Virus record (IMG/VR): IMGVR_UViG_3300037297_000099
Location: 1 to 36,171 of that record
DNA: 36,171 bases
Direction: 5' to 3' (one strand)
Source: a virus
Position 1 is the stretch's first letter, and the number at the start of each line of letters is the position of its first letter. This document shows positions 1-36,171 of the stretch, one piece after another. A program made the position numbers and the translations under genes. The notes beneath the pieces were generated by a model that saw nothing but the letters and a program-made list of their open reading frames with translations, was not told the origin of the DNA and did no database searches.

Positions 1-449
1 AAGGACAAAAACACGGGGTTGTGAAACAGTGGTATGAAAACGGACAACCTTGGTTGGAAATACCATTTTATCAAGGACAACTACACGGCGTTATGAAACG
101 GTGGCATGAGAACGGACAACTTGAATGTAAAGTACCATTTCACCAAGGGCAACAACACGGGGTTGTGAAACTGTGGCACGAGAACGGACAACTTGAAGTT
201 AAAATCCCATGGCACAAAGGACAAAAACACGGAATCGCGAAACAGTGGTATGAAAATGGAAAACTTGAAGAGGAAATACCATTTCACCAAGGGCAAAGAC
301 ACGGCATTGTAAAACAGTGGCACAAGAATGGACAACTTCAAATTGAAGCCCCATACCAACAAGGACAAATACACGGGGTTGTGAAACGGTGGTATGAAAA
401 TGGAAAGCTTTGGTTGGAAACCTATTGGGAACACGGGGTAGAACAATGA
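1..449 (+). CDS. MORN_2 repeat protein, 5'-partial (cassette A)
   Basis: The reading frame is open from the window edge (codons begin at base 3), so the N-terminus is missing. What remains is about five complete 24-residue repeats of the form xHGVVKxWxENGQLxxEIPxxQGQ, followed by the family C-terminal cap ending WEHGVEQ. The repeat matches the MORN_2 / YwqK-antitoxin-like pattern (known family); a cytoplasmic role is inferred because other members lack signal peptides. Its stop overlaps the ATG of the next, truncated cassette (ATGA). Bases 1-118 are identical to 2359-2476 in another cassette, and 282-377 are identical to 5532-5627 in a third, so this gene looks like a mosaic. Its function is unknown. 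Confidence 0.85.
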   Translation, partial: GQKHGVVKQWYENGQPWLEIPFYQGQLHGVMKRWHENGQLECKVPFHQGQQHGVVKLWHENGQLEVKIPWHKGQKHGIAKQWYENGKLEEEIPFHQGQRHGIVKQWHKNGQLQIEAPYQQGQIHGVVKRWYENGKLWLETYWEHGVEQ

Positions 450-529
450 ACCTACTACACGACGCTTACACAGCATGGATATCAGGATTGACTCGCAGGG
501 AATTAGAATACAATGAGATAGGAGTATAG
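446..529 (+). pseudogene. Truncated MORN_2 cassette, 27 codons (cassette B)
   Basis: This starts exactly like the other coupled cassettes (ATGA overlap with the preceding stop, MNLLHDAYTAWISGLT). After residue 16 it departs from the family into RRELEYNEIGV and stops at 527-529. The repeats and cap are missing, so it is probably the remnant of a deletion. Its last codons run into CAATGAGATAGGAGTATAGG, the same sequence that directly follows the complete cassette K at 36060. It may still be translated as a short peptide that carries ribosomes to the gene at 531. Confidence 0.7.
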
Positions 530-530
530 G

Positions 531-779
531 ATGAAAAAATATTACTGCATTACTACAATAGGCGAAAACAAGCACTTCTTTTATTCTAATAAATCATTGT
601 CGTTTGTAAAAAAAATTGCAAGCACGGTATATCACACTACAGGCGCCGACGAGATTACAGAACAGCAGTTCTTGGAATATTACAGAGCATTAGCAGAAAA
701 AGACGCAGATCTTATGCTTACGCAAGAAACATTAGATCTGCATAAAGAAATGAATAATTGGGAGAATGAAAATGACTAA
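531..779 (+). CDS. Hypothetical protein, 82 aa
   Basis: The start MKKYYCITTIGENKHFFYSN is preceded by the Shine-Dalgarno-like GATAGGAGTATAGG. I recognise no family. The protein has an aromatic beta-rich start and a helical, acidic C-terminal half, with no signal peptide or membrane segment. It sits immediately after cassette B, and its first 91 bases occur again at the right end of the window directly after cassette K. It is therefore the fixed gene on which two alternative cassette contexts converge. The next gene starts inside or just before its end, suggesting one operon. Confidence 0.75.
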   Translation: MKKYYCITTIGENKHFFYSNKSLSFVKKIASTVYHTTGADEITEQQFLEYYRALAEKDADLMLTQETLDLHKEMNNWENEND

Positions 780-1650: not shown

Positions 1651-2100
1651 ATGAAACTATGTCCAATATGTAATAAGCCTATTCGTCCATGGCAACGCAA
1701 AATCTACACTGAATCTAATACACTATTAATAAAATATTATCATCGTATGTGCTATTATGAATGTTATAAATTAAAAGACGCCAAGAAAGTCAGAACACTG
1801 GCAAATAGCGATAAAGCATTTGAAGAAATAATGTCTCATATTTATGATTCTGCAAGAAGTGGCTTGGTCAATTGCTCGTTAGGCGACGTCAACCAATTAT
1901 TTATTGATAGATTAATGGCATTAGGGTTTGGTGTTGTCAATAATAGTTCTTATCCGGGTGCCAATTATACTATTTCTTGGGACGTACCTCTAGATAAAAA
2001 GATTCTCGAGTTGGATGAGCGCATTAAGATGCTCCAGGATACCAGAGACGAATTGCGTTCAGAGCAATTGATTGAACGATTAGCAGGGGTGAAAAAATGA
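1651..2100 (+). CDS. Zinc-finger protein with C-terminal GYxV/ISW domain
   Basis: The N-terminus has CPIC (residues 4-7) and HRMC (about 31-34), a likely single zinc-binding finger. The middle (about 80-110) reads LMALGFGVVNNSS...YTISWDVP, a small alpha/beta module common in phage hypothetical proteins. The same module occurs in the gene at 33552 (LKKLGYRVESS...IYWSVP). The C-terminus is a charged, helical, probably coiled-coil segment. The function is unknown; a nucleic-acid or protein-binding role is inferred from the finger. The stop TGA overlaps the ATG of cassette C at 2097. Confidence 0.7.
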   Translation: MKLCPICNKPIRPWQRKIYTESNTLLIKYYHRMCYYECYKLKDAKKVRTLANSDKAFEEIMSHIYDSARSGLVNCSLGDVNQLFIDRLMALGFGVVNNSSYPGANYTISWDVPLDKKILELDERIKMLQDTRDELRSEQLIERLAGVKK

Positions 2101-2591
2101 CATTACTACACGACGCTTACACAGCCTGGTTATCAGGATTGACACATAAAGATGAAAAAGGAATTCATTGGCAGGATGAGAATGGCGATCCTATTACCAT
2201 AAGTGATATTGATGCGGAAACAAAAAGCTATGTTGTAAGATATTGGTATCAAAACGGACAACTTTTGAAGGAAGTACCATTTCACCAAGGGCAACAACAC
2301 GGCGTTGAGAAACGGTGGTACGAGAACGGACAACTTCAAATTGAAGCCCCATTTCACCAAGGACAAAAACACGGGGTTGTGAAACAGTGGTATGAAAACG
2401 GACAACCTTGGTTGGAAATACCATTTTATCAAGGACAACTACACGGCGTTATGAAACGGTGGCATGAGAACGGACAGCTTGAAGCAGAAATCCCATTTCA
2501 CCAATGGCAACAACACGGGGTTGTGAAACTGTGGCATGAGAATGGACAGCTTGAGTTAGAAACCCATTGGGAACACGGAATAAAACAATGA
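2097..2591 (+). CDS. MORN_2 repeat protein, n=3 (cassette C, 164 aa)
   Basis: This has the typical cassette structure. Residues 1-66 are the conserved N-module (MTLLHDAYTAW...GIHWQDENGDPITISD...) leading into the first partial repeat, followed by three complete 24-residue repeats and a 26-residue cap ending THWEHGIKQ (66+3x24+26=164). One repeat has QWQ in place of QGQ. AGGGGTG lies before the ATG, which also overlaps the upstream stop. It begins MTL, like the first gene of each cassette run, whereas downstream coupled copies begin MNL. There is no signal peptide, so it is presumably cytoplasmic. The repeat family is MORN_2/YwqK-like; the function is not shown. Confidence 0.88.
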   Translation: MTLLHDAYTAWLSGLTHKDEKGIHWQDENGDPITISDIDAETKSYVVRYWYQNGQLLKEVPFHQGQQHGVEKRWYENGQLQIEAPFHQGQKHGVVKQWYENGQPWLEIPFYQGQLHGVMKRWHENGQLEAEIPFHQWQQHGVVKLWHENGQLELETHWEHGIKQ

Positions 2592-3301
2592 ACTTACTAC
2601 ACGACGCCTACACAGCATGGTTATCAGGATTGACACATAAAGATGAAAAAGGAATTCATTGGCAGGATAAATATGACAATCCTATTACCATAAGCAATGT
2701 AAATGCGGAAACAGAAAGCTATGTTGTAAGACACTGGTATGATAACGGACAACTTGAAAATGAAGTCCCGTTTCACCAAGGGCAAAGACACGGCATTGTA
2801 AAACAGTGGCACAAGAATGGGCAACTTTGGTTGGAAATACCGTGCCGACAAGGACAAATACACGGCATTAAGAAACGGTGGAATGAAAACGGACAATTTG
2901 AAGTTGAAACCCCATGGCACAAAGGACAACAACACGGGGTTGAGAAATGGTGGTATGAGAATGGGAAACTTGAGTTTAGAGTCCCATGGTACAAAGGACA
3001 AGAACACGGAATCGTGAAACAGTGGTATGAGAGTGGAAAACTTAAGGCGGAAATCCCAGCTCACCAAGGACAACAACACGGGGTTGTGAAACGGTGGTAC
3101 GATAACGGACAACTTGAAGAGGAAATACCATTTCACCAAGGACAACAACACGGGGTTGTGAAACAGTGGCGCGAGAATGGAAAACTTTGGGCGGAAATAC
3201 CATTTTATCAAGGACAAAAACACGGGGTTGTGAAAGTGTGGAACGAGAACGGACAACTTGAAAGTGAAACGTATTGGGAACACGGATATAGACAGAGCTA
3301 A
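2588..3301 (+). CDS. MORN_2 repeat protein, n=6 (cassette D, 237 aa)
   Basis: The start at 2588 is by ATGA overlap with cassette C. An ATG at 2567 in the same frame lies inside C and would break homology with the other N-modules. Conserved N-module (MNLLHDAYTAWLSGLTHKDE...), then six full 24-residue repeats and a cap with one extra residue (YWEHGYRQS). Segments are shared at DNA level with other cassettes; for example, the stretch around 2769-2815 matches that around 5529-5575 in cassette F. It closes the C-D pair, since the next gene is the unrelated methyltransferase. Confidence 0.88.
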   Translation: MNLLHDAYTAWLSGLTHKDEKGIHWQDKYDNPITISNVNAETESYVVRHWYDNGQLENEVPFHQGQRHGIVKQWHKNGQLWLEIPCRQGQIHGIKKRWNENGQFEVETPWHKGQQHGVEKWWYENGKLEFRVPWYKGQEHGIVKQWYESGKLKAEIPAHQGQQHGVVKRWYDNGQLEEEIPFHQGQQHGVVKQWRENGKLWAEIPFYQGQKHGVVKVWNENGQLESETYWEHGYRQS

Positions 3302-4497: not shown

Positions 4498-4992
4498 ATG
4501 ACATTACTACACGACGCTTACACAGCATGGACATCAGGATTTACACACAAAGACGAAAAAGGAATTCATTGGCAGGATAAATATGACGATCCTATTACCA
4601 TAAGCAATGTGAATGTGGCAACGGAAAGTTATATTGTAAGATATTGGTATCCAAATGGACAACTTGAAAGTGAACTATCATTTTATCAGGGGCAAAGACA
4701 CGGCGTTATGAAACGTTGGGATGAGAATGGACAACTTTATGAGGAAATACCATGGCACAAAGGACAAAAACACGGGGTTGTGAAATGGTGGCACGATAAC
4801 GGACAACTTGAAGTTGAAATACCATACCAACAAGGACAAATACACGGCGTTATGAAACGGTGGTATGAGAATGGAAAACTTAGGGCGGAAATACCATTTT
4901 ATCAAGGACAAAAACACGGGGTTGTGAAAGTGTGGCATGACAATGGAAAGCTTTGGTTGGAAACCTATTGGGAACACGGAATAAAACAATGA
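4498..4992 (+). CDS. MORN_2 repeat protein, n=3 (cassette E, 164 aa)
   Basis: The start is at 4498, after AGAAAGGAAAAACAGA. The in-frame ATG at 4426 lies within the hairpin and would add 24 residues unlike any other member. Conserved N-module (MTLLHDAYTAWTSGFTHKDE...), three full 24-residue repeats, and the cap TYWEHGIKQ. It has the same length as cassette C but a different repeat content, e.g. GQLYEEIPWHKGQ and GKLRAEIPFYQGQ. It is the first gene of the E-F pair and begins MTL like C and H. It has no signal peptide. Confidence 0.88.
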   Translation: MTLLHDAYTAWTSGFTHKDEKGIHWQDKYDDPITISNVNVATESYIVRYWYPNGQLESELSFYQGQRHGVMKRWDENGQLYEEIPWHKGQKHGVVKWWHDNGQLEVEIPYQQGQIHGVMKRWYENGKLRAEIPFYQGQKHGVVKVWHDNGKLWLETYWEHGIKQ

Positions 4993-5987
4993 ACTTACTA
5001 CACGACGCTTACACAGCCTGGATATCAGGATTGACACATAAAGATGAAAAAGGAATTCATTGGCAGGATGAAGAAAACGATCCTATTACTATAAGTGATA
5101 TCAATGCGGAAACGAAAAGCTATGTTGTAAGATATTGGTATCCAAATGGACAACTTGAAAGTGAAGTCCCGTTCCACCAAGGGCAAAAACACGGCGTTGA
5201 GAAACGTTGGCACGAGAATGGCCAACTTCAAAGTGAAGCTCCATTCCACCAAGGGCAACCACACGGCATTGAGAAACGGTGGTATCAGAATGGACAACTT
5301 TGTGAGGAAATCCCATGGCACAAAGGGCAAGAACACGGGGTTATAAAATACTGGTATGAAGACGGACAACTTCAATCAGAAATCCCTTACCAACAAGGGC
5401 AAAAACACGGGGTTGAGAAACGTTGGCACGAGAATGGCCAACTTCAAGAGGAAACCCCATATCACCAAGGGCAACCACACGGCATTGAGAAACGTTGGGA
5501 TGAGAATGGAAAACTTATGTTTGAAGTCCCGTTTCACCAAGGGCAAAGACACGGCATTGTAAAACAGTGGCACAAGAATGGACAACTTCAAATTGAAGCC
5601 CCATACCAACAAGGACAAATACACGGGATTGATAAACAGTGGTATGAAGACGGAAAACTTAAGTATGAAGTCCCGTTTCACCAAGGGCAAGAACACGGCG
5701 TTATGAAACGGTGGCACGAAAATGGACAACTTCAAAAGGAAATACCATTTCACCAAGGGCAAGAACACGGGGTTGAGAAACGGTGGCGCGAGAATGGACA
5801 CCTTGAAGTTGAAATACCATTTCACCAAGGGCAACAACACGGGGTTGTGAAACGTTGGTATGAAGACGGAAAACTTAAGTATGAAGTCCCGTTCCACCAA
5901 GGACAAAAACACGGGGTAGAGAAACGGTGGTATTTAAATGGACAACTTGAAAGTGAAACGTATTGGGAACACGGAATAGCACTCTGA
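4989..5987 (+). CDS. MORN_2 repeat protein, n=10 (cassette F, 332 aa)
   Basis: This is the longest member: N-module (66 residues), ten full 24-residue repeats, then a 26-residue cap ending YWEHGIAL. The start at 4989 is an ATGA overlap with cassette E. Repeats 1, 4 and neighbouring units resemble each other (GQKHGVEKRWHENGQLQ twice), suggesting internal unit duplication. Bases 5532-5627 are identical to 282-377 in cassette A. Variation lies mostly at repeat positions 1, 7, 9-10, 15-16 and 20-21, while HG, K, W, NG, L, E, P and QGQ stay fixed. A surface-exposed, variable binding face is an inference from this pattern. Confidence 0.88.
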   Translation: MNLLHDAYTAWISGLTHKDEKGIHWQDEENDPITISDINAETKSYVVRYWYPNGQLESEVPFHQGQKHGVEKRWHENGQLQSEAPFHQGQPHGIEKRWYQNGQLCEEIPWHKGQEHGVIKYWYEDGQLQSEIPYQQGQKHGVEKRWHENGQLQEETPYHQGQPHGIEKRWDENGKLMFEVPFHQGQRHGIVKQWHKNGQLQIEAPYQQGQIHGIDKQWYEDGKLKYEVPFHQGQEHGVMKRWHENGQLQKEIPFHQGQEHGVEKRWRENGHLEVEIPFHQGQQHGVVKRWYEDGKLKYEVPFHQGQKHGVEKRWYLNGQLESETYWEHGIAL

Positions 5988-6350: not shown

Positions 6351-7070
6351 ATGAAAAGGGTATTAGTTGTGTTTGCTATGTTGTTTGCGATTTGTAATTG
6401 CGTCGAAGGTATCATATATGGTGCGGTTGAAAAGTGGCCTAACGGAAAACTTAAACAGGTGGTCACATACAACCAAGAGCAAGGATACGGGGTTGTAAGA
6501 TCCTGGCATGAGAATGGAAAACTTCAAAAGGAAATCCCTTACCACAAAGGGCAACCACACGGCGTTGAGAAATGGTGGTATGATGATGGACAACCTTGGT
6601 GGGAAATTCCATACCAACAAGGACAACTACACGGGGTTGTGAAATGGTGGCACGAGAATGGCCAACTTCAAAAGGAAATCCCTTACCACAAAGGGCAACA
6701 ACACGGCGTTGAGAAACGTTGGGATGAGAACGGAAAACTTGAAAGTGAAATTCCATACCGACAAGGACAAAAACACGGGGTTGTGAAATACTGGTATCCA
6801 AATGGACAACTTTGGTGGGAAATCCCATGGCACAAAGGACAAGAACACGGGGTTGTGAAATGTTGGGATGAGAATGGAAAACTTGAGTTTAAAGCCCCAT
6901 ACCACAAAGGACAAAAACACGGGATTGTAAGATATTGGCATGAGAATGGAAAACTTGAAAGGGAAATCCCTTACCACCAAGGGCAACAACACGGGATTGT
7001 GAAATACTGGTATCCAAACGGACAACTTGAGACGGAACAAGCATACATGTATGGGGAGCGGATAGACTAA
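6351..7070 (+). CDS. Exported MORN_2 repeat protein (cassette G, 239 aa)
   Basis: Unlike its paralogs, this one begins with a Sec-type signal peptide (MKRVLVVFAMLFAICNCVEG): basic start, hydrophobic core, then cysteines that do not fit a strict lipobox. It goes directly into repeats (YGAVEKWPNGKLKQVV...) without the family N-module. About nine repeats follow, ending with an atypical cap (QAYMYGERID). The DNA of the repeats is closely similar to that of the cytoplasmic members. The leader is GAGAAAGGAAAAGTAGA. It is probably periplasmic, exported or on the cell surface; the target is unknown. It is the last gene of the cassette cluster before the GC-rich block. Confidence 0.85.
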   Translation: MKRVLVVFAMLFAICNCVEGIIYGAVEKWPNGKLKQVVTYNQEQGYGVVRSWHENGKLQKEIPYHKGQPHGVEKWWYDDGQPWWEIPYQQGQLHGVVKWWHENGQLQKEIPYHKGQQHGVEKRWDENGKLESEIPYRQGQKHGVVKYWYPNGQLWWEIPWHKGQEHGVVKCWDENGKLEFKAPYHKGQKHGIVRYWHENGKLEREIPYHQGQQHGIVKYWYPNGQLETEQAYMYGERID

Positions 7071-16395: not shown

Positions 16396-16399
16396 GTTT

Positions 16400-17593: not shown

Positions 17594-17594
17594 A

Positions 17595-22699: not shown

Positions 22700-22704
22700 A
22701 TTTT

Positions 22705-22896
22705 TTATCCTCGGGCGGCCTCTATTACAGCCATTAGTATATCAGCAACAGATTCAACATCACCGTCTTGGACGGCTTGTACAAAATCTTTAGCAAAGGA
22801 TTTTACTTGGTCTTCTAAACCATCTTTGCTTTCTTTGCCTTCTTTTTTGTCATATTTGCCTTTAGGAGGCGACCCGGGAGAAAATATTAATTCCAT
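22705..22896 (-). CDS. Small virion-operon protein, 63 aa
   Basis: MELIFSPGSPPKGKYDKKEGKE is followed by an acidic amphipathic helix, FVQAVQDGDVESVADILMAVIEAARG. Short proteins with such a C-terminal helix pair are common between capsid and adaptor genes in tailed phages. An AAAGGAGG-type ribosome-binding site precedes the ATG. The function is unknown. Confidence 0.65.
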   Translation of the reverse strand: MELIFSPGSPPKGKYDKKEGKESKDGLEDQVKSFAKDFVQAVQDGDVESVADILMAVIEAARG

Positions 22897-22908
22897 GTTT
22901 CGCCTCCT

Positions 22909-23373
22909 TTACCAAATTGGACTATCAACCACAGCGTTATTTAGAACCACTTCACCTGTTACCCTTTCGTCGTGGCCAAGGTCAGTTCTAGCCGCAGAAG
23001 TATTAAGTATCTTGAGTATGACCCGAGTCTGTTGCGGTTCGGCATATCCATCAGCTTGCAAAGACTGACTCAACGGATATTCTGGAACAACAATTAATAC
23101 CTCGTCACTTGAAGGAACTACCTCACCACTAACCCGAACAATTCTCTCGAATTGGTCACGAAGGATTAAATGATAAGTCCCTTTACCCGTTCTGAATACT
23201 TCATATCTACTACCATAACCATCGGCATCATAGTCATTATCGTAAATGTTCTCGTAACCGTCGTCACCTGTCGGGAAAGTGTCATCCTCTGCGGCTCCTG
23301 ACGCAAAGTTAAACACGACACGGACTTCGTGTCTATTTGGGGTTTCGAGAGCATAAGGAAATTTATTAGCCAT
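22909..23373 (-). CDS. Hypothetical head protein, 154 aa
   Basis: MANKFPYALETPNRHEVRVVF begins a beta-rich protein with an acidic DGY-containing loop region (about 40-60) and a long stretch of alternating hydrophobic residues (YHLILRDQFERIVRVSGEVV, EVLIVVPEYPL). As the first gene transcribed after the major capsid protein, it may be a head decoration or cement protein (inference from position). I do not recognise the family. Confidence 0.6.
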   Translation of the reverse strand: MANKFPYALETPNRHEVRVVFNFASGAAEDDTFPTGDDGYENIYDNDYDADGYGSRYEVFRTGKGTYHLILRDQFERIVRVSGEVVPSSDEVLIVVPEYPLSQSLQADGYAEPQQTRVILKILNTSAARTDLGHDERVTGEVVLNNAVVDSPIW

Positions 23374-23411
23374 TATGTTTTACTCCTATTAGTTATTTTG
23401 TGCTCTTTACC

Positions 23412-24665
23412 TTATAGTAAGATTACCCCATTGGCTCCTGGATTCTTGCAACAAAGGTTCCCATAAGTTGCACAGTAATAATCCATTTGGTCATAACCAG
23501 AAACACGAGAAAGAACATTTCCGTCGTCGTCAACTAACTGTGCGATTGGGTCAGTTGAGTTCCATTCCCACGTTGACATGTCTAGAATAAAGATCTTACT
23601 GTCTGGACAACCACGGTCAGCGATAGCTTCAAGATCGCCGCCTTTTGTGCCAGAGAATTGAATAGTCTTGAAGCCAACTGTAGCACCATTACCTGATGCT
23701 TTTTTCATTCCTGGCTCATTATAAACTCTTGCGGCCTGTAATGACTTTTGCAGTTCAGCTCTATTCCTATGGGACATTACGATAAGATCGGCATTTGATT
23801 CTTCACGCCCAACTAACTGTGCTACAGATTCAATAATCATTTCATGCAAGGCTGGGCTTTGAGAAGTGAAATCAAAGCGGTGGCCAGCTAATCTTGTAGG
23901 ATGCTTATATCGGTCAGTTGAACCTTGCCAGGAATCACCATTACCTGGAGCAACAGAAGGAATCCAACCACCAATACCAGCAATAGCGTTATTATGACGA
24001 CCTTTGAGAAATACATAGTCGGATGCCGATGCACCACTAATAGAAGAAGTAATAGCGGTCGCAAAAGAAAGCTGACCACTATTGACGTTTACACCAGCGA
24101 TCTGGGCATAACTTGGTGAACCTCTTAAAGAGCCAGTGCCTGGATCACTTGATAAACCAATATAGTCATCAGCCTGGAAGTTACAGGCCATAGTCTTCTC
24201 TGTTAATGTAACGGTCTTGCCGTCTGAAGAAATTTCAGATATTCGGCCAGTATAGTTTCCGCCATCTCCAAACCAGACATCGGCAAGAGCCCGGCGGTGC
24301 ATTCTTTTAGTTGCATCGATGTACATCTTTACGTTGTCACGGAACGCGCCGACGTTACCCATTGATTGACGCATCCTTTTACGGCTCAAAATACCACGGT
24401 TGTATACATCAGCTGGTTCCACAGTAAACTTGGTAAATAGTGGTGTCTGAGAAGCGGTAAGAGCAGTTGAATCACTTGCTACAGCCTGATTACCGTCTGA
24501 ATACATAACGGGAAACTGAGTATTTAGACCTCGCCATTTTTCATTTTTTTTGGTAAGGGCCATAGTTGGATTGTTTTGATATAGTTCCTGGAAATCGACC
24601 TTAGGCGGATACCAGACTTTTAGCATATTATCGAAATATGCACTTAGAGTTGCAGTTGCTACCAT
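23412..24665 (-). CDS. Major capsid protein
   Basis: 417 residues beginning MVATATLSAYFDNMLKVWYPP. Features usual for podovirus capsid proteins (HK97-fold inferred) include FTVEPADVYNRGILSRKRMRQS, the loop IDATKRMHRRALADVWFGDGG, VMSHRNRAELQKSLQAARVY near residues 290-310, and the C-terminal ILDMSTWEWNS...YYCATYGNLCCKNPGANGVI. It lies downstream of the scaffold gene, as in most tailed phages, and has a strong AAGGAGTAA before the ATG, in keeping with high expression. Confidence 0.85.
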   Translation of the reverse strand: MVATATLSAYFDNMLKVWYPPKVDFQELYQNNPTMALTKKNEKWRGLNTQFPVMYSDGNQAVASDSTALTASQTPLFTKFTVEPADVYNRGILSRKRMRQSMGNVGAFRDNVKMYIDATKRMHRRALADVWFGDGGNYTGRISEISSDGKTVTLTEKTMACNFQADDYIGLSSDPGTGSLRGSPSYAQIAGVNVNSGQLSFATAITSSISGASASDYVFLKGRHNNAIAGIGGWIPSVAPGNGDSWQGSTDRYKHPTRLAGHRFDFTSQSPALHEMIIESVAQLVGREESNADLIVMSHRNRAELQKSLQAARVYNEPGMKKASGNGATVGFKTIQFSGTKGGDLEAIADRGCPDSKIFILDMSTWEWNSTDPIAQLVDDDGNVLSRVSGYDQMDYYCATYGNLCCKNPGANGVILL

Positions 24666-24685
24666 TGTAGTTACTCCTTATTATA

Positions 24686-25675
24686 TTAAGTATTTTCGCG
24701 AAGCCACTGTGCATGAAGCCGGGCTTCTTGTTTTGCTAGTTGTTCGTCTGATGCATCGGTTAAATTAAGTTGAGTACCTGAATCCGATGATAGACTATTA
24801 GATAATGTATTCGTCTGTGTTTTGTCTGTTTGCTTTGCTCTCTTTTTGCCTGGAGTAACTTCCTTTTGTGTATTTTCCTCTGGATATAATTTTGCGAAAA
24901 GTGTTTCTTTCGGTATGGACCTTAGACTTTCAAGGATTTCATTTTCTATGGCACTGGTGGCATCAGAATATTCAAGTATGGTCTGATCTTCTAACCAATG
25001 TTCGTTTACTCGGGATAATACCACAGCACCAGCGTTTAATGCTTTGCAGCACGGATAATCACCTTCGTCAATAACCACTTGAACGTCATTGTATAGTTTT
25101 TGGACTAAATCATTCTGCTCTTGTTCTAATCTTTGTTGTTCTGCCTGCGCTCGATTTTGCCTGTCTTGTTCTAATTCGGCCACTTTATTTTGTAATGCCT
25201 GCACTTCTTTGCTAGGCATATTGGCCATTTTATCTATGTTCCCATCAGCCTCTAACCAGTCTGATATGTCTTTGAGTGACAAATTAAAGGTAGATAATAT
25301 TTCTCCCGGATTTCGATTATCCTGAAGTGACATATATCTCTTTAATTCACCTTTAGCTTTCTCTAATTCAGATTGATTGGCTGTATGTGCTTTGCTTATC
25401 TCATCTCTCTCCCGCTGTGCTCTACGTGCGGCCACAAAAGCCTTTGCGTCTAGATTGCCGGGTTTTGCTACTTCTGATTTATCATCAGGCTCGGTTTCCT
25501 CTAACTCGTCGCTTTTATTTTCAGTAGATTCAACTTCTTCGTTTTCACTTTCGAGGTCTTCAGGTAAACCATTTAATTGTTGCAAAAATTCCTTGGCTAT
25601 TTGGGATTCTTGTGCTTCAAGGTCTAACTCTTGATCGTTACTATTAGTCTCTGTTTCATTATTATTGTCGGCCAT
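24686..25675 (-). CDS. Capsid scaffolding protein
   Basis: 329 residues, very acidic N-terminus (ETETNSNDQELDLEAQESQ, EVESTENKSDELEETEPDD), then a long coiled coil (VQALQNKVAELEQDRQNRAQ...) and a C-terminus with KKRAKQTDK and a terminal helix. This composition and the location between portal and capsid genes are characteristic of scaffolding proteins, which direct procapsid assembly and then leave. No protease domain is visible. Confidence 0.8.
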   Translation of the reverse strand: MADNNNETETNSNDQELDLEAQESQIAKEFLQQLNGLPEDLESENEEVESTENKSDELEETEPDDKSEVAKPGNLDAKAFVAARRAQRERDEISKAHTANQSELEKAKGELKRYMSLQDNRNPGEILSTFNLSLKDISDWLEADGNIDKMANMPSKEVQALQNKVAELEQDRQNRAQAEQQRLEQEQNDLVQKLYNDVQVVIDEGDYPCCKALNAGAVVLSRVNEHWLEDQTILEYSDATSAIENEILESLRSIPKETLFAKLYPEENTQKEVTPGKKRAKQTDKTQTNTLSNSLSSDSGTQLNLTDASDEQLAKQEARLHAQWLRENT

Positions 25676-25692
25676 TATTTTTCTCCATTATA

Positions 25693-27486
25693 TTATTGTG
25701 GCATTTGTTGCCCTGGTGTATTCAAAGCCTCAGGCGCTTGCGCTTCTTGGGCTTCTTGCACTGCTTGCGCTTCTTGGGCTTCTTGGGCTTCTCTTATCAT
25801 TTCTTGACAATCGTTAATCCATTCACGGATTGACTGTTTATTTAATTCTGGGTATTTCTCTACATTCATACGGCCATAAACCATAAGAGCATAAGACAAA
25901 CAATGATCCGCTGGAAACAAAGGATCCGGTGGCTCGTATTCGCCTGTCTTGGCTATACGGTCCACTATTTGCTTTACAGCGTCATTCAAGCCAGAATGCA
26001 TGTCATTATATTTGTTCAAGTCTGGCCAATCTAATAAGTCTCTAGCTATCTCAGGGTCTTTGATAAGTTGCATCTTTAGCATTTGTTCAATAAACGCTAA
26101 TTGTCCTTCTGGCCGGCTAGGCAAAGAAGAAGTAGGATAAGCTACCATTTGATACTTATCGCTACTCAAATCTACCTCTTCCCAAATGATCTTCGAGAAA
26201 ATATCACGCTTCACAGACGGCATTACGAAATCATAATTGCTGGCTATCTCCTTCGATAAAATAACTAGCCGTCTGCCAATTTCTACGTGGAAGTCTTGCC
26301 AATCCAAACCTACTTCTTTGAATCGCTCGGTTTCAATATCGGCGTATTCACGTAAGGAAACGCCAGACTCTAGACCCGCTGGTTTTTTAGCAGCAACAGA
26401 TAATTCACTAAGCCCAATTTCCTCGAAAGCTTCTTGTTTGCGTAAAGCCAACCATTGATAAAAATCAGACGGCATTTGTTGAAAAGTGAAAAGTTTAGGT
26501 GGTTGTCGAGACCGTATAATTCTACCAAATTCATTATTGATTGCTCCAACCGGTATCTCGGCATTAGTAGGAATCCACCAATATGGTTGAGAGTTAAGAT
26601 GTAGGTTGCGCTGAATAGAAAGCATCATTAAGTTAATATCGGTCTGTATGCCGTCTAACTGCTCGGCTATTCCCATGCCGTACCAACCGAGGCCACGCTG
26701 TTTCCACCTCCAAGTAACAAACGGAAAGAAATCATATTCCCACGGTTCGTCTATTAAAGAACCATCACTTACAGCGATTACATGTCGGCCATCTTTTGCG
26801 TCTGGTCCAGAACGTAGGTGCCAAGCCTCTACAACATCAATAAACTCGGCGTGAGACTCTATCCAAAAGTTATTAATGTTACAGGCAGAAGTCTCTATTT
26901 CGCCTTTCTTATTCTTAAATCGTGCCATCAATACTTCTTTGGGCACCGTTTTTACCTGATACATGGACCTAGGGTTTCCTGTCATTGCTTCAAATGCGTC
27001 AACCCACACCTCTAAAGGAAACACTGATTCCGTCTTAATCTCGTCGTTTTCGACCCATATTTTTAAATGTGCTTCTCCTTTCCAACCACTGTTTCTAAAA
27101 ATTTCTCGAGTCTGCTTATAGATACCAAGACTCTGAAACAATCCTGTGACATAATCGGTAAGCACTTCGCAATTGTTAGACACTTCAAAATCGTTGGAAT
27201 ATGGCTTAAAGAACGGTCTAGGCTTTTTCTGGGCGATCTTGGAGGTCAGAGTATCAATAGCGGAAAAGATAATATTGCGCTTGGCTCGTGCTTCTTTATT
27301 TACCGTTTTAGCTTCTAATATACTACCTGATAACACAGACGATATATCTATGTTGCCATACTGTTTTAAGTGTATGATGTCTTCCTTTATGCGATCATGT
27401 TGCTGGTCTTTAAGCGTTTGACAGATATTCCATATTGCTGTGTGCACTTCGGATTTTTCTGCCTTCCACCACAAGTTATAGAGCAT
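25693..27486 (-). CDS. Portal protein
   Basis: 597 residues with the usual podovirus-type portal pattern: an N-terminal helical wing (IDTLTSKIAQKKPRPFFKPY), GWKGEAHLKIWVENDEIKTESVFPLEVWVD, FFPFVTWRWKQRGLGWYGMGIAEQLDGIQTD (about 275-305), and the stem/crown region with KKPAGLESGVSLREYADIETERF. The C-terminal 35 residues are a low-complexity run of (Q/V)EAQ units ending TPGQQMPQ. The dodecameric ring serves as DNA entry and exit. Its ATG has CGGAG upstream and faces the 764-base non-coding region, so it probably heads a transcription unit. Confidence 0.87.
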   Translation of the reverse strand: MLYNLWWKAEKSEVHTAIWNICQTLKDQQHDRIKEDIIHLKQYGNIDISSVLSGSILEAKTVNKEARAKRNIIFSAIDTLTSKIAQKKPRPFFKPYSNDFEVSNNCEVLTDYVTGLFQSLGIYKQTREIFRNSGWKGEAHLKIWVENDEIKTESVFPLEVWVDAFEAMTGNPRSMYQVKTVPKEVLMARFKNKKGEIETSACNINNFWIESHAEFIDVVEAWHLRSGPDAKDGRHVIAVSDGSLIDEPWEYDFFPFVTWRWKQRGLGWYGMGIAEQLDGIQTDINLMMLSIQRNLHLNSQPYWWIPTNAEIPVGAINNEFGRIIRSRQPPKLFTFQQMPSDFYQWLALRKQEAFEEIGLSELSVAAKKPAGLESGVSLREYADIETERFKEVGLDWQDFHVEIGRRLVILSKEIASNYDFVMPSVKRDIFSKIIWEEVDLSSDKYQMVAYPTSSLPSRPEGQLAFIEQMLKMQLIKDPEIARDLLDWPDLNKYNDMHSGLNDAVKQIVDRIAKTGEYEPPDPLFPADHCLSYALMVYGRMNVEKYPELNKQSIREWINDCQEMIREAQEAQEAQAVQEAQEAQAPEALNTPGQQMPQ

Positions 27487-28250
27487 TAATAAATCTCCGT
27501 ATTATTTAGTTATATTAAAAGCCAATTTTCAAATCGATGTCAGAGCCGTTATATTGGGTATAATAGGGTAGGGGTGGGTCGGTGATCGCCTTGCTCCGTG
27601 TATTCATATATCCTACCTATCCCTACATTAACTTATATGTCCTTACATTAATCTTATCCTACCTATCCCTACATTAATTTATATGTCCTTACATTAATCT
27701 TATCTTACTTTTCCCTACATTAACTTATATGCTATTACACTGGTCTCTATGTTCCATACACGCTAGAACCGTGTCGAAATGGCCCACAATTGCCCTGTGA
27801 GCTCTTTGTGGGTCGAGATGACCTCTATGGTCCTATGGACTTCTACGGGCCATCTACGGGCTTTCTATGGCCATCTATGAAAAGGGTTATTTTCATAGGT
27901 TATTGCCACGTGATCTCTCTGGAATTGGATTGATTTTGGCTGGTCTGCCCTGGATGTGAGTTTATGTGATTAAATATGTGTCCGTGTAGTGTTTTGTGAG
28001 CGGGTGTGGTGCGACTTTTCTTACCACACAATCAACGCTGTTATATTTATTCGCCTGTTATTTTTAATGTTTTTTATACCTATATGCTTTTATTTTTATG
28101 TATATCTTGTAATATACTTTTATTTTTAATGTTTATGTATATCTGTATAATCTATATGCTTTGATTTTTAATGTTTTCTATACATATATGCTTTTAGTTT
28201 TATGTATATCTTGTATAACGTATATGCTTTATATTAGGCCTATTTATTTA
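27487..28250. repeat. 764-base non-coding region with several repeat families
   Basis: No plausible gene lies between portal and the 102-residue gene. Three kinds of structure are visible. (1) A 46-bp tandem repeat with copies starting at 27611, 27657 and 27703 (third incomplete), each built around CCTACCTATCCCTACATTAA. (2) Short CTATGG / CTACGGGCCATCTA echoes at about 27817-27880. (3) An AT-rich section with ATTTTTAATG at 28060, 28122 and 28164, each followed by variants of TATATGCTTTTA and TTTTATGTATATC. A G-rich stretch with TATAAT is at 27555-27585. It could be a replication origin, packaging signal or promoter region for the virion operon. Confidence 0.7.
27611..27731. repeat. 46-bp tandem direct repeat, about 2.6 copies
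   Basis: Copies begin at 27611, 27657 and 27703. The first two are almost identical and the third ends after CCCTACATTAACTTATATG. Within each unit the related halves CCCTACATTAACTTATATG and TCCTTACATTAATCTTATC suggest an older internal duplication. Such iterated AT-rich units resemble iterons or packaging/terminase sites; the role is inferred only. Confidence 0.8.
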
Positions 28251-28559
28251 TTACCAATCCCTTCCTGCCGCGGTTCTTATTTGATCGTCTGTTAGGCCAA
28301 ATGGGTTTCTTGATCTTTCTTCACCTTCCATATCATTTCGCATGGGAGGTTCTCCTACTATTTCTAATTCTATATTATCTACCTTTAATCTTACATGTGG
28401 TATTGAGTGTTCTTTAATAAAAGAAATTAGATCTTTTATATCCTCTACACTATAACTGTTATTTATTAATAGATCTTTTAATTGCTCATCTATCTTCTCT
28501 AATTTCTCTGTCTTTTCATCTATTAATTCTTTTATTCTATTTTCCGTCCGTTTTAACAT
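28251..28559 (-). CDS. Hypothetical protein downstream of TerL, 102 aa
   Basis: The N-terminal half is a Lys/Glu-rich coiled coil (ENRIKELIDEKTEKLEKIDEQL). The middle has VEDIKDLISFIKEHSIPHVRLKVDNIELEIVGEP, and the C-terminus NPFGLTDDQIRTAAGRDW. No family is assigned. The ATG lies one base after the terminase stop, so it belongs to the packaging operon. It is the last gene before the repeat-rich non-coding region. Confidence 0.65.
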   Translation of the reverse strand: MLKRTENRIKELIDEKTEKLEKIDEQLKDLLINNSYSVEDIKDLISFIKEHSIPHVRLKVDNIELEIVGEPPMRNDMEGEERSRNPFGLTDDQIRTAAGRDW

Positions 28560-28560
28560 T

Positions 28561-30114
28561 TTATTCAGCCTCCAATGAAAACGCCGAGTCGGTTTGGAAT
28601 AGGTCGGCTATGTATTTGTCCTCTGGCGTTCTGGGACCTTGTTGTCGCTTTTCCCAATACCGCTGAAAGAAACCCGGGACCTTGCGCTCTTGACGTTCTC
28701 TAATGCCCAGAGTTGAGACGTGGGCATAGCGCAGGGCATCAAAGAAGTGGTCCGGGCCTCCTGTTATTTTCTTTCGCTCTGCGGTTAGCCAGCGCAATCG
28801 TCTTATCTCGTCTATGTAATTGGCTAGGCTCTTGTGTATTTTTATTCGGCCGGCCTGAAATTCGGAAGATAACAACTCGATGTGCTCTGGCTTATCTCTC
28901 TTGTATGCCGCCTCAATAGGTAATCCATACTGGGCCTCGATGTCTTGGACGTACTGTGCTCCGCCGCCGCCTGGATCTGCTTGAATGGACTCGAAGGCAT
29001 AGATATTGTCTAGCTCCTTTACCTTGGCCATAACTTGCTGAAAAGCCATTCCTGCCTGTTGAAACACATCTATAACATAGAAGTTGGGGTCGTCGTTAGC
29101 GTAAGCACAAATAACCAGAGCAACTGGATCTTTGGTTCCGAAGTCTGCCCCTAGGACGTAGTTGTATTTGTTGTCAGGTAGCTTCTCGAATGTGTTTAGG
29201 TCATCATTGAAGATTATAATATGTGAATCCCTTGTTCTCGTCCATTCCGCCAGCCATTCTCTCTTGAAGCGAGAAGAGGTCATGGAAATACCGTAAGTGG
29301 TCATTTCACGTTCTAGCCATTCGGGGGCTAGGACTTCCCAATTTTCTCTTAGCCACTTTTGCTTGGCGGGTTTGGATTTTATATTGACTTGCTCGTCTTT
29401 CATTCTTTTTGTTATCCATTTTGGTATCATTCTGAGATCTGACCAGGCCGGAAACTTCGGATTTTGTAAAATAGTTGAATGCCATTTCTTAAAGTTATCT
29501 TTATTGTTCCAAATCTTGTGAAAATAACCAGTGCAAGAGTAGTTTGGCGTTCCCGAAAGATACAGTGTGCCCTCATAATCTGATAGAGTAGGCATTACAA
29601 TTTCTTCGATTATGTATTCTAAATTGCCTATACGCTCTGACTGTGCTTCATCGAATGCTACCATCTTTGGTTTTAATCCACGTAGAATTTCTATGTCTTG
29701 CTCTTTTGCTACACCACACAAATGGATTGCACTGTCGTTAGGAAAAGTAGCTGTCAAGTCTCGTTCATTAAAGTGTAATCCTAACGAGTAATTCTTATCG
29801 AATATTTTTAGCTCCTTCCAAATTAAATCCTTGGCGTGTCCCTTTGTGAGGCCAACGAAACAACAAATTACGCCTGGATTTTCCTCTGATATTCTTACTG
29901 CGTCAGCTTTCAAAATATATGTTTTGCCGGAACGTCTACCAAAGCATAAGCATTTGAGACGGGCTGGATCATAGATAATGTCTTTTTGGAATGGAAACAA
30001 CTCACTCATGAAACCAAGCCTTGGTTGTGCTGGCTTGTCTGTGGTGGGAAGCTGCTCTTGCGACATATTGCGTCGCAGATATGTATCTAGTGCTCTACGT
30101 ACCTCGGGTTTCAT
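28561..30114 (-). CDS. terL: Terminase large subunit
   Basis: 517 residues. The ATPase domain has Walker A GRRSGKT (59-65) and Walker B MVAFDEAQ (151-158, D155 E156), with the coupling motif LYLSGTP at about 185-190. The nuclease domain has LGADFGTKDP (D324), IQADPGGGG (D380) and DHFFDALRYA (D455/D459), the three acidic positions of the RNase H-like fold. The enzyme cuts concatemeric DNA and drives it through the portal. The start overlaps nothing; it is preceded directly by the 82-residue gene. Confidence 0.95.
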   Translation of the reverse strand: MKPEVRRALDTYLRRNMSQEQLPTTDKPAQPRLGFMSELFPFQKDIIYDPARLKCLCFGRRSGKTYILKADAVRISEENPGVICCFVGLTKGHAKDLIWKELKIFDKNYSLGLHFNERDLTATFPNDSAIHLCGVAKEQDIEILRGLKPKMVAFDEAQSERIGNLEYIIEEIVMPTLSDYEGTLYLSGTPNYSCTGYFHKIWNNKDNFKKWHSTILQNPKFPAWSDLRMIPKWITKRMKDEQVNIKSKPAKQKWLRENWEVLAPEWLEREMTTYGISMTSSRFKREWLAEWTRTRDSHIIIFNDDLNTFEKLPDNKYNYVLGADFGTKDPVALVICAYANDDPNFYVIDVFQQAGMAFQQVMAKVKELDNIYAFESIQADPGGGGAQYVQDIEAQYGLPIEAAYKRDKPEHIELLSSEFQAGRIKIHKSLANYIDEIRRLRWLTAERKKITGGPDHFFDALRYAHVSTLGIRERQERKVPGFFQRYWEKRQQGPRTPEDKYIADLFQTDSAFSLEAE

Positions 30115-32939: not shown

Positions 32940-33140
32940 ATGACAAGATCAAAGAAGTATCGATATCCGAACGGTTATGACGTCGAGATCACTTTTGGCC
33001 AAGATAAGTATTGTGCTTTAGTCACGACAGGATTTGACCCAGATTTTATTCTCAACGCCACCGATTTAGACGATATGGGTTTGGCGCGTTTTTTAGAGCG
33101 TATTCGGTCGCTACCATTAGAAAAGGAGAATAGAAAATGA
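32940..33140 (+). CDS. Small protein with SKKYRYxNGY motif, 66 aa (copy 1)
   Basis: MTRSKKYRYPNGYDVEITFG starts a strand-rich N-terminus, followed by a helix ending LARFLERIRSLPLEKENRK. It is a paralog of the next gene (SKKYRYSNGYVAEV ... FLNYIKSLPSPGKE). The function is unknown. It is the first gene of the operon that leads into cassette H. A 17-codon frame (33137-33190) starts by ATGA at its stop and carries the ribosome-binding site of the next gene, possibly for coupling. Confidence 0.68.
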   Translation: MTRSKKYRYPNGYDVEITFGQDKYCALVTTGFDPDFILNATDLDDMGLARFLERIRSLPLEKENRK

Positions 33141-33179: not shown

Positions 33180-33383
33180 ATGAAATCTAAATCAAAGAAG
33201 TATCGATATTCAAATGGTTATGTAGCAGAAGTAATGCTCACGCCTGATCAAGGATATAAGGCATCCGTTTGGCACTCACAGTGTTTGAATTGCGTGAGCA
33301 TCAATGTAAAGGATGCCGACAAAAATATAATGAAGAGTTTTTTGAACTATATCAAATCATTGCCCAGCCCAGGAAAGGAGTAG
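33180..33383 (+). CDS. Small protein with SKKYRYxNGY motif, 67 aa (copy 2)
   Basis: TTGGAGGAAACAGA precedes the ATG. The N-terminal KSKSKKYRYSNGYVAEVML and the C-terminal helix MKSFLNYIKSLP match the previous gene, while the middle (YKASVWHSQCLNCVSINVKDA) has diverged. This is a tandem duplication. It is followed 7 bases later by the ribbon-helix-helix gene. Confidence 0.68.
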   Translation: MKSKSKKYRYSNGYVAEVMLTPDQGYKASVWHSQCLNCVSINVKDADKNIMKSFLNYIKSLPSPGKE

Positions 33384-33876: not shown

Positions 33877-34443
33877 ATGACATTACTACACGACGCTTAC
33901 ACAGCCTGGTTATCAGGGCTAACTTACAAAGATGAAAAAGGAATTCATTGGCAGGATAAATATGACAACCATGTTACCATAAGCAATGTAAATGCGGAAA
34001 CAGAAAGCTATGTTATAAGATATTGGCACAAGAATGGACAGCTTGAAAGTGAAATCCTATTTCACCAAGGGCAAAAACACGGGGTAGAGAAACGGTGGTA
34101 TGAAAATGGGAAACTTAAGGCGGAAATCCCAGTTTGCCAAGGACAAATACACGGGATTGAGAAGTGGTGGAATGAAAACGGACAACTTGAAGAGGAAATA
34201 CCATATCAACAAGGACAAATACACGGCGTTATGAAACAGTGGTATGAAAGCGGAAAGCTCGAAAAGGAATTTCCATACCAACAAGGACAAATACACGGGA
34301 CCGCGAAATGGTGGCACGAGAACGGAAAACTTCAAGAGGAAACCCCATGGTACCAAGGGCAAAAACACGGGGTAGAGAAACGTTGGTATGAGAATGGGAA
34401 ACTTCAATTGGAAGCCCATTGGGAACACGGAATGAAACAATGA
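33877..34443 (+). CDS. MORN_2 repeat protein, n=4 (cassette H, 188 aa)
   Basis: First gene of the right-hand cassette run, starting MTLLHDAYTAWLSGLTYKDE after GGGAGAATAGA. N-module of 66 residues, four full 24-residue repeats and a 26-residue cap (AHWEHGMKQ). One repeat reads IHGTAKWWHENGKL. The DNA of its last repeat, cap and the junction to the next gene (34361-34520) is identical over 160 bases to the I-J junction, showing a recent duplication. Confidence 0.88.
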   Translation: MTLLHDAYTAWLSGLTYKDEKGIHWQDKYDNHVTISNVNAETESYVIRYWHKNGQLESEILFHQGQKHGVEKRWYENGKLKAEIPVCQGQIHGIEKWWNENGQLEEEIPYQQGQIHGVMKQWYESGKLEKEFPYQQGQIHGTAKWWHENGKLQEETPWYQGQKHGVEKRWYENGKLQLEAHWEHGMKQ

Positions 34444-34862
34444 ACTTACTACACGACGCTTACACAGCCTGGCTATCAGGGCTAACTTATAAAGATGAAA
34501 AAGGAATTCATTGGCAGGATAAATATGACAATCCTATTACTATAAGTGATATTGACATAGAAACAAAAAGCTATGTTGTAAGATATTGGTATCAAAATGG
34601 ACAACTTCAAAAGGAAGTCCCATATCAACAAGGACAAAGACACGGGGTTGAGAAATGGTGGTATGATGGTGGACAACCTTGGTGGGAAATTCCATATCAA
34701 CAAGGGCAAATACATGGCGTTGAGAAAGGATGGCATGATAACGGATGGCCTTATGTGGAAGTCCAATACCAACAATGGAAAAAACACGGGGTAGAGAAAC
34801 GTTGGTATGAGAATGGGAAACTTCAATTGGAAGCCCATTGGGAACACGGAATGAAACAATGA
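34440..34862 (+). CDS. MORN_2 repeat protein, n=2 (cassette I, 140 aa)
   Basis: The shortest complete member: N-module, two full repeats and the AHWEHGMKQ cap (66+48+26). It starts by ATGA overlap at 34440. Both its borders carry the same 160-base block (34361-34520 and 34780-34939), so unequal recombination could delete or multiply the whole gene. Some repeat positions are unusual (WYDGGQPWW, WHDNGWPYVEVQYQQWK). Confidence 0.87.
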   Translation: MNLLHDAYTAWLSGLTYKDEKGIHWQDKYDNPITISDIDIETKSYVVRYWYQNGQLQKEVPYQQGQRHGVEKWWYDGGQPWWEIPYQQGQIHGVEKGWHDNGWPYVEVQYQQWKKHGVEKRWYENGKLQLEAHWEHGMKQ

Positions 34863-35428
34863 ACTTACTACACGACGCTTACACAGCCTGGCTATCAGGG
34901 CTAACTTATAAAGATGAAAAAGGAATTCATTGGCAGGATGAAGAAAACGATCCTATTACTATAAGTGATATTGACATAGAAACAAAAAGCTATGTTGTAA
35001 GATATTGGTATCAAAATGGACAACTTTTGAAGGAAGTACCATTTCACCAAGGGCAACAACATGGGGTTGCGAAAGAGTGGCACGAAAATGGAAAACTTTG
35101 GTGGGAAATCCCTTACCATCAAGGACAAAAACACGGGGTAGAGAAACGGTGGTACGAAAACGGAAAACTTTGGTGGAAAATCCCGTTTCACCAAGGACAA
35201 AAACACGGAATCGCGAAATGGTGGCACGAGAACGGAAAGCTTGAAGAAGAAATACCATATTATCAAGGGCAAAGACACGGGGTTGTGAAAGAGTGGTGTG
35301 GCAATGAACAACTTTGGCGGGAAATCCCCTATGACCAAGGACAAGAATACATAGAAAAAATAATAAGGAAACACGTAATAGGACAAGAATACATAGAAAA
35401 AATGATAAGGAAACACGGAATAAAATAA
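34859..35428 (+). CDS. MORN_2 repeat protein with degenerate tail (cassette J, 189 aa)
   Basis: N-module and four full repeats (the last with the odd CGNEQL), then the pattern breaks. The usual cap is replaced by two 14-residue units, GQEYIEKIIRKHVI and GQEYIEKMIRKHGI, encoded by a 42-bp direct repeat (35339-35380, 35381-35422). The final bases GGAAACACGGAATAAAATAATG still resemble the canonical border, so the tail probably arose by deletion inside a repeat followed by duplication. The stop overlaps the next ATG (TAATG). Confidence 0.85.
   Translation: MNLLHDAYTAWLSGLTYKDEKGIHWQDEENDPITISDIDIETKSYVVRYWYQNGQLLKEVPFHQGQQHGVAKEWHENGKLWWEIPYHQGQKHGVEKRWYENGKLWWKIPFHQGQKHGIAKWWHENGKLEEEIPYYQGQRHGVVKEWCGNEQLWREIPYDQGQEYIEKIIRKHVIGQEYIEKMIRKHGIK
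35339..35422 (+). repeat. 42-bp direct repeat in the 3' end of cassette J
   Basis: Two nearly identical 42-base units beginning GGACAAGAATACATAGAAAA. It is the only place in the array where the unit length is not 72 bp; the length stays divisible by three, so the frame is kept. Confidence 0.85.
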
Positions 35429-36066
35429 TGAACCTACTACACGACGCTTACACAGCATGGACATCAGGATTGACACACAAAGATGAAAAAGGCATTCATT
35501 GGCAGGATGAAGAAAACGATCCTATTACCATAAGCAATATCAATATGGAAACAAAAAGCTATATTGTAAAATATTGGTATCCAAATGGACAACTTGAAAG
35601 TGAAGAACCATATCGCCAAGGACAAAAACACGGAATCGTGAAACAGTGGCACGAAAATGGACAACTTAAACTTGAGGTCCCATACCAACAAGGACAAAAA
35701 TACGGAACTGAAAAGGATTGGGATGCCGATGGACAACTTGAAGCGGAAATCCAATTTCACCAAGGGCAAAGACATGGGGTTGTGAAACAGTGGTATGCCG
35801 ACGGACAACTTATGTTTGAGGTCCCATACCAACAAGGACAACAGCACGGCGTTGTGAAACGGTGGTATGGCAACGTACAACTTATGTTTGAAGTCCCATA
35901 CCAACAAGGGCAACAGCACGGTGTTGTGAGACAGTGGTATGAAAACGGACAGCTTTGGATGGAAACCACATATCACCAAGGGCAAATACACGGTGTTGCT
36001 AAACAGTGGTACAAGAATGGAAAGCTTGAATGTGAAACCCATTGGGAACACGGAATAAAACAATGA
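35428..36066 (+). CDS. MORN_2 repeat protein, n=5 (cassette K, 212 aa)
   Basis: N-module (MNLLHDAYTAWTSGLTHKDE...), five full repeats and the cap THWEHGIKQ (66+120+26). The repeats are somewhat divergent (GTEKDWDADGQL, WYGNVQLMF), with two neighbouring units nearly identical (QLMFEVPYQQGQQHGVV). The stop lies in CAATGAGATAGGAGTATAGG. In the window's left part this sequence instead follows the truncated cassette B, so K and B are alternative neighbours of the gene at 531. Confidence 0.88.
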   Translation: MNLLHDAYTAWTSGLTHKDEKGIHWQDEENDPITISNINMETKSYIVKYWYPNGQLESEEPYRQGQKHGIVKQWHENGQLKLEVPYQQGQKYGTEKDWDADGQLEAEIQFHQGQRHGVVKQWYADGQLMFEVPYQQGQQHGVVKRWYGNVQLMFEVPYQQGQQHGVVRQWYENGQLWMETTYHQGQIHGVAKQWYKNGKLECETHWEHGIKQ

Positions 36067-36171
36067 GATAGGAGTATAGGATGAAAAAATATTACTGCAT
36101 TACTACAATAGGCGAAAACAAGCACTTCTTTTATTCTAATAAATCATTGTCGTTTGTAAAAAAAATTGCAA
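36060..36171 (+). repeat. 112-base exact copy of 510-621 at the window end
   Basis: 36060-36171 equals 510-621 base for base and contains the leader and first 27 codons of the gene at 531. Upstream of it the two contexts differ completely (36059 and before against 509 and before). This is consistent with a circular or circularly permuted molecule of 35,550 bp whose left end carries a variant of the cassette region, or with two genomic copies of this segment. Confidence 0.9.

Follow-up and report, generated by a model that had tools for sequence, protein, structure and literature searches.

Why does a phage of about 35.5 kb carry nine complete genes of one size-variable repeat family, and does it possess a system that varies them? 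This question is raised by the viral DNA analysed here, positions 1 to 36,171 of IMG/VR record IMGVR_UViG_3300037297_000099 (the window, 36,171 nucleotides), in which genes built from 24-residue MORN_2 (PF07661) repeats lie around both ends. An earlier note on this DNA had suggested a dedicated variation system, for instance for binding variable host proteins or toxins. Our results point instead to accessory modular binding proteins diversified by ordinary recombination and selection, an answer to which we give an even chance of being correct.

The array consists of nine complete genes (g1 to g9), one partial gene (g0p) and one stub, and this count, already given in the earlier note, was confirmed. 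A profile search of the repeats revealed 62 unit matches across the window and none in any of 14 control genomes. The complete genes comprise 5,622 bp, in agreement with the previous figure of about 5.6 kb; with overlaps counted once they cover 5,605 bp, or 15.8% of a 35,550 bp circle. The span 33877-36066, in which the array had been placed, contains only four of these nine genes. A 69-residue N-module (MTLLHDAYTAW...) is common to eight of the nine complete genes, g5 being the exception, and no signal peptide was seen by eye in eight of the nine. Five of the genes start on the end of the preceding MORN gene: g2, g4, g7 and g8 through a four-base ATGA overlap, and g9 through a single shared base. 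Long antisense open frames were also seen over the array genes.

The modular, in-frame structure of the genes was supported. The proposed length rule of 66+24n+26 residues, that is 92+24n, fits the seven genes for which it was stated (g1 to g4, g6, g7 and g9, with one extra residue in g2), while g8 and g5 fall outside it. Because the genes share an N-module, one cap and whole 24-residue repeats, the regularity holds by construction and restates these modules; it is therefore no evidence that unit number changes today.

Six array proteins from the nine complete genes were scanned with Pfam, and all six scored 63.9 to 218.6 bits for PF07661 (cut-off 29.6); the remaining g1, g2 and g3 (starting at 2097, 2588 and 4498) were covered by the PF07661 unit matches. 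Structure prediction of two N-module paralogs with different n, g9 and g4, yielded confident MORN sheets (mean predicted local distance difference test scores, pLDDT, in Table 1), with one two-stranded hairpin per unit, strands at unit positions 24-5 and 11-18, and a short predicted helix at the beginning of the N-module. Positions 4, 12 and 13 are predicted to lie in strands and position 22 in the connecting stretch. MORN proteins form a single-layer sheet of beta hairpins, and the solved folds nearest to the g9 model in a Foldseek search were MORN1 from Toxoplasma, Plasmodium and Trypanosoma, with query-normalised TM-scores of about 0.5-0.56. Further matches were engineered OspA, Rhs shells of the type VI secretion system and junctophilins, including a junctophilin-2 PDB entry with, according to its title, a channel peptide. 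The array proteins are thus predicted to adopt the beta-hairpin sheet of MORN proteins, and the models support a type of repeat fold able to bind peptides. By sequence, the best PDB matches were designed WRAP and WD-40-type propellers and TPR-like designs (best E 5e-10); we attribute them to repeat composition, given that the models resemble MORN proteins in fold. A Cmr1 match to g6 (PADLOC, three array proteins; E 0.0082) was marginal and was taken as chance, and PHROGs gave no match for g6, the sole array protein submitted to it.

Table 1. Coordinates of the array genes and of the exact repeats in the window (aa, amino acids).
Feature	Coordinates	Strand	Description
g0p	3..449	+	MORN_2 gene lacking its 5' end, at the left end of the window (variant A)
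Stub	446..529	+	27 codons: first 16 codons of the N-module, then divergent; read from sequence
g1	2097..2591	+	MORN_2 gene, 164 aa
g2	2588..3301	+	MORN_2 gene, 237 aa; ends YRQS (extra residue)
g3	4498..4992	+	MORN_2 gene, 164 aa
g4	4989..5987	+	MORN_2 gene, 332 aa; model mean pLDDT 90.5
g5	6351..7070	+	MORN_2 gene, 239 aa; without N-module; signal-peptide-like start (by eye); PF07661 6.1e-50
g6	33877..34443	+	MORN_2 gene, 188 aa; N-module, units and cap; PF07661 1.2e-35
g7	34440..34862	+	MORN_2 gene, 140 aa; start within g6 stop (ATGA overlap); PF07661 3.7e-18
g8	34859..35428	+	MORN_2 gene, 189 aa; twice-repeated 42-bp segment in place of the usual cap
g9	35428..36066	+	MORN_2 gene, 212 aa; AlphaFold2 mean pLDDT 92.9
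160-bp exact repeat, first copy	34361..34520	+	Spans g6 end and g7 start
160-bp exact repeat, second copy	34780..34939	+	Offset 419 bp
112-bp end overlap	36060..36171 and 510..621	+	Closes the circle; two upstream sequences for one downstream gene

To compare the units at the DNA level, 67 units were cut and the 56 canonical ones were used, leaving out 11 (caps, degenerate units and stops). Mean identity was about 73%. Neighbouring units, at 73.2%, resemble each other no more closely than units taken from separate genes, at 73.0%, a pattern that shuffling of units would produce but that old divergence throughout would produce as well. Exact tracts were nevertheless long: 101 bp between g0p and g1 (118 bp including the window edge), 96 bp between g0p and g4, 83 bp between g6 and g7, and 60, 53 and 50 bp in three more paralog pairs. 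One g0p unit is identical to a g1 unit and one to a g4 unit, and the rest have no identical copy. Exact runs of at least 50 bp occurred in 6 of 540 register comparisons, compared with a mean of 0.04 and a maximum of 1 in 300 simulations that kept phase-specific match rates and the mean identity of each pair and that covered the repeat regions only, without the N-modules; the longest simulated run was 34 bp on average and 61 bp at most (300 runs). The six long runs are not all independent, one segment being common to g0p, g2 and g4. Paralogs therefore share tracts far beyond the simulated expectation, which supports the exchange of units between them by putative recombination events.

The 83-bp run between g6 and g7 extends across the gene border into a 160-bp exact repeat, the two copies of which are offset by exactly the length of g7 minus its four-base overlap. 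Beyond the repeat lie ten bases with five mismatches, followed by another 77 identical bases. Recombination between the two copies would delete g7 cleanly.

The ratio of replacement to silent differences per site (pN/pS) was estimated for each codon from all 1,540 unit pairs with an uncorrected count of the Nei-Gojobori type, with intervals from a gene bootstrap (400 resamples). The results showed an excess of replacements at codon 4 (1.42; 1.03-2.58) and codon 13 (1.75; 1.27-2.31), and a value of 2.13 at codon 22 with an interval that includes 1 (0.78-10.19), against 0.35 for the other 21 codons. Codons 12 and 2 also encode variable amino acids, but with pN/pS of only 0.29 and 0.73. At codon 13 many amino acids occur with G or T as third base in 53 of 56 units, and at codon 22 variation is concentrated in the first and second bases (pi 0.55 and 0.58), the third being almost constant (0.07). 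Simple codon bias is an unlikely cause of the codon pattern, because the choice of third base depends on the site: for Glu, codon 14 uses GAA in 49 of 51 cases, whereas codon 2 uses GAG in 14 of 15. Gln-21 is CAA in all 55 Gln codons (units at 34084-34371, for example). Such site-specific silent bases suggest a constraint at the DNA level or (recent) homogenisation. Among 29 unit pairs differing at no more than 10 of 72 bases, 127 codons differed in amino acid and 53 silently, which is still purifying overall because a unit has about 59 replacement and 13 silent sites. At codons 4 and 13 the excess of replacements is no more than suggestive, and would fit a specificity set by the variable positions.

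The last 112 bp of the window are identical to positions 510-621, and a sister contig (IMGVR_UViG_3300042731_005198; 35,530 bp) runs from g9 directly into the gene at 531; together, these results indicate a circle of about 35.55 kb, and the array therefore forms one region of about 8.7 kb, from 33877 across the join to 7070. The sister contig matches window positions 622-34849 and 34870-36171 with zero mismatches. Positions 1-509 (g0p and the stub; variant A) and 35551-36059 both precede the same downstream gene, the sister contig having the second sequence only, and its longest matches to 1-509 are paralogs of 80-82% identity. The stub junction was found in no other viral contig, in a search from which the window's own record was possibly left out. 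Two upstream sequences were thus observed at one junction, and variant A may be either a second array form among the molecules of one population or a second copy within a duplication in one genome. The sister contig begins and ends within the second copy of the 160-bp repeat, its two termini being separated by 20 bp, and its assembler probably could not cross this copy.

In the explanation that we favour, the nine paralogs, most of them in tandem, would be elongated single-layer beta-sheet MORN_2 proteins and most likely modular binders, for example ones that inhibit, or act as decoys for, variable proteins made by the host or by rival elements. Unequal exchange would duplicate or delete whole genes, such as the 419 bp of g7 between the 160-bp exact repeats, exchange or conversion in the 72-bp register would swap or add units with the frame intact, and selection would favour amino-acid change at a few positions per unit, namely 4 and 13 and probably 22. 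The variable positions would then form a binding face, and variation may be ongoing in the population. We infer that the proteins have a target, for which variable host proteins or toxins, as the earlier note had suggested, are reasonable candidates.

Several results weigh against this explanation. No toxin gene was recognised next to the array among the ten non-structural proteins scanned with Pfam. The sister contig was the sole other contig of the phage found, and it agrees with the window over the shared array; variant A could be a second fixed copy within one genome. Over the whole unit, pN/pS was 0.47, indicating purifying selection, and codon 22 on its own did not reach significance when genes were resampled. 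Silent variation is distributed very unevenly among the codons of the unit (at Leu-11, CTT is used in 49 of 50 cases) and may bias pN/pS, and pairwise pN/pS on recombining repeats is a crude test. Finally, in the related array of a Helicobacter equorum prophage described below, pN/pS was 0.70 at codon 4, 1.09 at codon 13 and 1.12 for codons 4, 13 and 22 together (interval including 1).

A less probable but tenable alternative is an ordinary and now fixed paralog family that arose by old duplications with occasional gene conversion, in which variant A is a tandem duplication in one genome and neither ongoing variation nor a repertoire function exists. The length rule follows from the shared modules, a mean unit identity of just 73% makes most of the divergence old, the window and the sister contig agree over all 35,530 shared bases with the array included, and MORN_2 genes are multi-copy in some bacteria (27 places in a Fusobacterium vincentii record). 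However, a fixed family leaves the exact tracts far above simulation, the two alternative upstream sequences and the replacement excess at codons 4 and 13 to be accounted for.

A more far-reaching form of the favoured explanation, which we consider rather unlikely, is a recombination-driven repertoire of binders reshuffled in the population in both unit number and hypervariable residues, with a different set in each lineage and no dedicated machinery. Such a repertoire may be likened to the repeat-built receptors diversified in animals, but in a 35.5 kb virus, and the Helicobacter prophage suggests a recurrent phage strategy that is under-reported by short-read assemblies. If the favoured explanation is right, phages would have repeat-based adjustable binding proteins that need homologous recombination only, positions 4, 13 and 22 would provide a handle on what MORN_2 proteins ('YwqK antitoxin') bind, and the rarity of seen arrays may be explained by the breaking of both contigs inside the array.

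The minus strand carries the terminase, an SU10-type adaptor above its cut-off, and an SU10-type portal (28.9 of 30 bits) and capsid (19.9 of 24.1 bits) that are both under the cut-off, the portal having PHROG support. The plus strand carries the integrase, an MT-A70 methyltransferase and the array, which thereby lies on the strand of the small non-structural genes and the methyltransferase, opposite the structural genes. The phage appears to be a temperate-looking SU10-type podophage. An improbable reading of the array in such a phage is that it consists of lysogenic-conversion genes, whose secreted or surface proteins would benefit the bacterial host in relation to the animal or protist that it inhabits, a role proposed for MORN2 proteins of Fusobacterium. 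The integrase, the signal-peptide-like start of g5 (by eye), weak matches to the LIC20035 adhesin model and a sub-threshold match of g4 to a factor-H-binding domain (23.7 bits vs a cut-off of 28.1) are consistent with this, and MORN2-domain proteins are listed among Fusobacterium adhesins in PMC10995627. Conversely, eight of the nine complete genes lack a signal peptide by eye and the N-module starts with a short helix in the models, the LIC20035 (NF033566) scores of 20.5-65.4 bits in five of five array proteins scanned are far under the 250-bit cut-off.

That the array, or variant A, is a short-read chimera is very improbable. Both contigs break at exact array repeats, but an assembler faced with repeats tends to merge copies and not to create divergent ones. 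The nine complete genes are identical in the sister contig except for 20 bases at 34850-34869, and variant A has an open frame of 148 codons, some units of which have no identical counterpart in the window and no close one in the sister contig. A pure assembly artefact was rejected, since the sister contig reads the array identically.

The dedicated variation system of the earlier note was not borne out. No RVT_1 match to a reverse transcriptase was found in the window, with a profile that matches 3 of 14 control genomes, and a Pfam scan of 29 non-array proteins revealed no recombinase besides the integrase; 17595-20504, 32940-33140 and 33180-33383 (PHROGs only) and shorter or doubtful open frames were outside that scan. 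A dedicated system is therefore unsupported; homologous recombination between 72-bp units and whole genes suffices. A diversity-generating retroelement varying the hypervariable codons was rejected and receives practically no credence from us: codon 13 does encode many amino acids and ends in G or T in 53 of 56 units, but the window lacks an RVT_1 match, the variable codons are distributed across 56 units without any one template being seen, and the varied bases are not only adenines.

The phage belongs to a nearly unsampled lineage. Its structural module occupies 10283-30114 (minus strand), and its terminase relatives reach only 20.7-24.4% identity in the best 20 of 555 phage-record matches. 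A capsid search of the phage records returned no relative, and IMG/VR searches with the terminase, major capsid protein and portal yielded only the sister contig and, for the portal, a single relative of 25% identity on a contig of 4.2 kb. The best ten integrase relatives in the plasmid collection were all from cyanobacterial plasmids (41-46%), which does not settle the host. Next to the integrase, 7739-8437 has a TPR-repeat N-terminus followed by an unrelated, possibly lipoprotein-like part, and lies in a stretch of higher G+C (0.48); it may be the end of a gene captured from a host. The adjacent small paralogous genes 32940-33140 and 33180-33383 (38% identical, E 2e-10), immediately upstream of the array, are another tandem duplication. 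Tandem repeats of 46 bp and 42 bp (27609-27731 and 28088-28176) lie between the portal gene and the gene at 28251-28559, in a gap within which no open frame of at least 60 codons starts and ends. Two structural-strand proteins (16400-17602 and 20486-22039) each end in an endosialidase chaperone domain (PF13884).

Profiles of the N-module and of the unit found no viral relative except the sister contig; in genome contigs the N-module profile had no confirmed match and the unit profile had three, at 35-41%. A Helicobacter-type unit profile found no confirmed viral relative, in a scan without positive control. At E<=0.01, g4 had relatives in 3 of 50,697 phage records, namely a Helicobacter equorum prophage, a Salmonella phage (1,554-bp record) and a Vibrio phage (349 kb), the first two of which also matched g6 at E<=1e-5. 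The view that such a family is unusual for a phage thus stands with respect to these records, but is tempered by the MORN families of giant viruses and by a three-gene array in the Helicobacter prophage. In the open-licence literature on MORN with phage, prophage or gene conversion, no such phage array was found by titles and abstract starts. A marine long-read study reports that MORN repeats, with MORN and MORN_2 not separated, were 37 times more frequent in long reads than in assemblies, and that MORN repeats occur in phage endolysins (PMC9238414).

Compared with the MORN_2/YwqK proteins of bacteria, the array proteins belong to the same repeat family above the cut-off, with 24-residue units, and are likewise multi-copy, as in the 27 places of the Fusobacterium vincentii record. 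Ten of the best 20 of 22 plasmid-collection matches are annotated as 'YwqK family antitoxin', a label that is an annotation of the relatives. In Bacillus, ywqJ-ywqK is described as a putative toxin-antitoxin pair of the LXG kind (PMC8321402), and in some endosymbionts ywqK lies beside vgrG (PMC8163844). The present genes differ in their N-module, which was recovered in the phage and its sister contig only, in scans reaching close relatives (the tblastn match to the Helicobacter prophage reaches query residue 9), and in forming a tandem overlapping phage array with no partner toxin recognised. No toxin domain was found in ten non-structural proteins scanned with Pfam, most of which had no match at all, so that an unknown toxin may still be present, and no cognate toxin gene of the YwqJ-YwqK type was found beside a MORN_2 gene. 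A simple toxin-antitoxin assignment was rejected.

The Helicobacter equorum prophage (BK070118.1) likewise carries three tandem overlapping MORN_2 genes (27255-29962), on the side of its integrase and about 2.4 kb from it. These genes contain 33 unit matches, and their variability profile over 27 units resembles that of the present array (Spearman correlation of entropies, 0.76). In contrast, they begin in a sequence other than the N-module, number three rather than nine, are 43.5-46.2% identical to the present ones, and support a replacement excess at codon 22 only. A 98-bp tract shared between two of the Helicobacter genes proved to be the same DNA in two overlapping open frames and was not counted.

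MORN1 of Toxoplasma and Plasmodium and the junctophilins resemble the array proteins in fold (Foldseek E 1.2e-6 to 4.2e-4, probability 1.00), with hairpins predicted here, but they share only 14-18% identity, are eukaryotic and form no variable array. Giant viruses with MORN families are large viruses of amoebae, and those such as Orpheovirus, Marseillevirus and Hyperionvirus resemble the present phage in having a large viral MORN paralog family. Orpheovirus proteins made up 18 of the best 50 of 219 BFVD fold matches (E<=0.001), and the third match was a 'MORN variant' of an uncultured Caudovirales phage. For marseilleviruses, MORN proteins head the list of abundant paralog families (PMC8208085). 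Unlike in these giant viruses, the MORN family described here resides in a phage of 35.5 kb.

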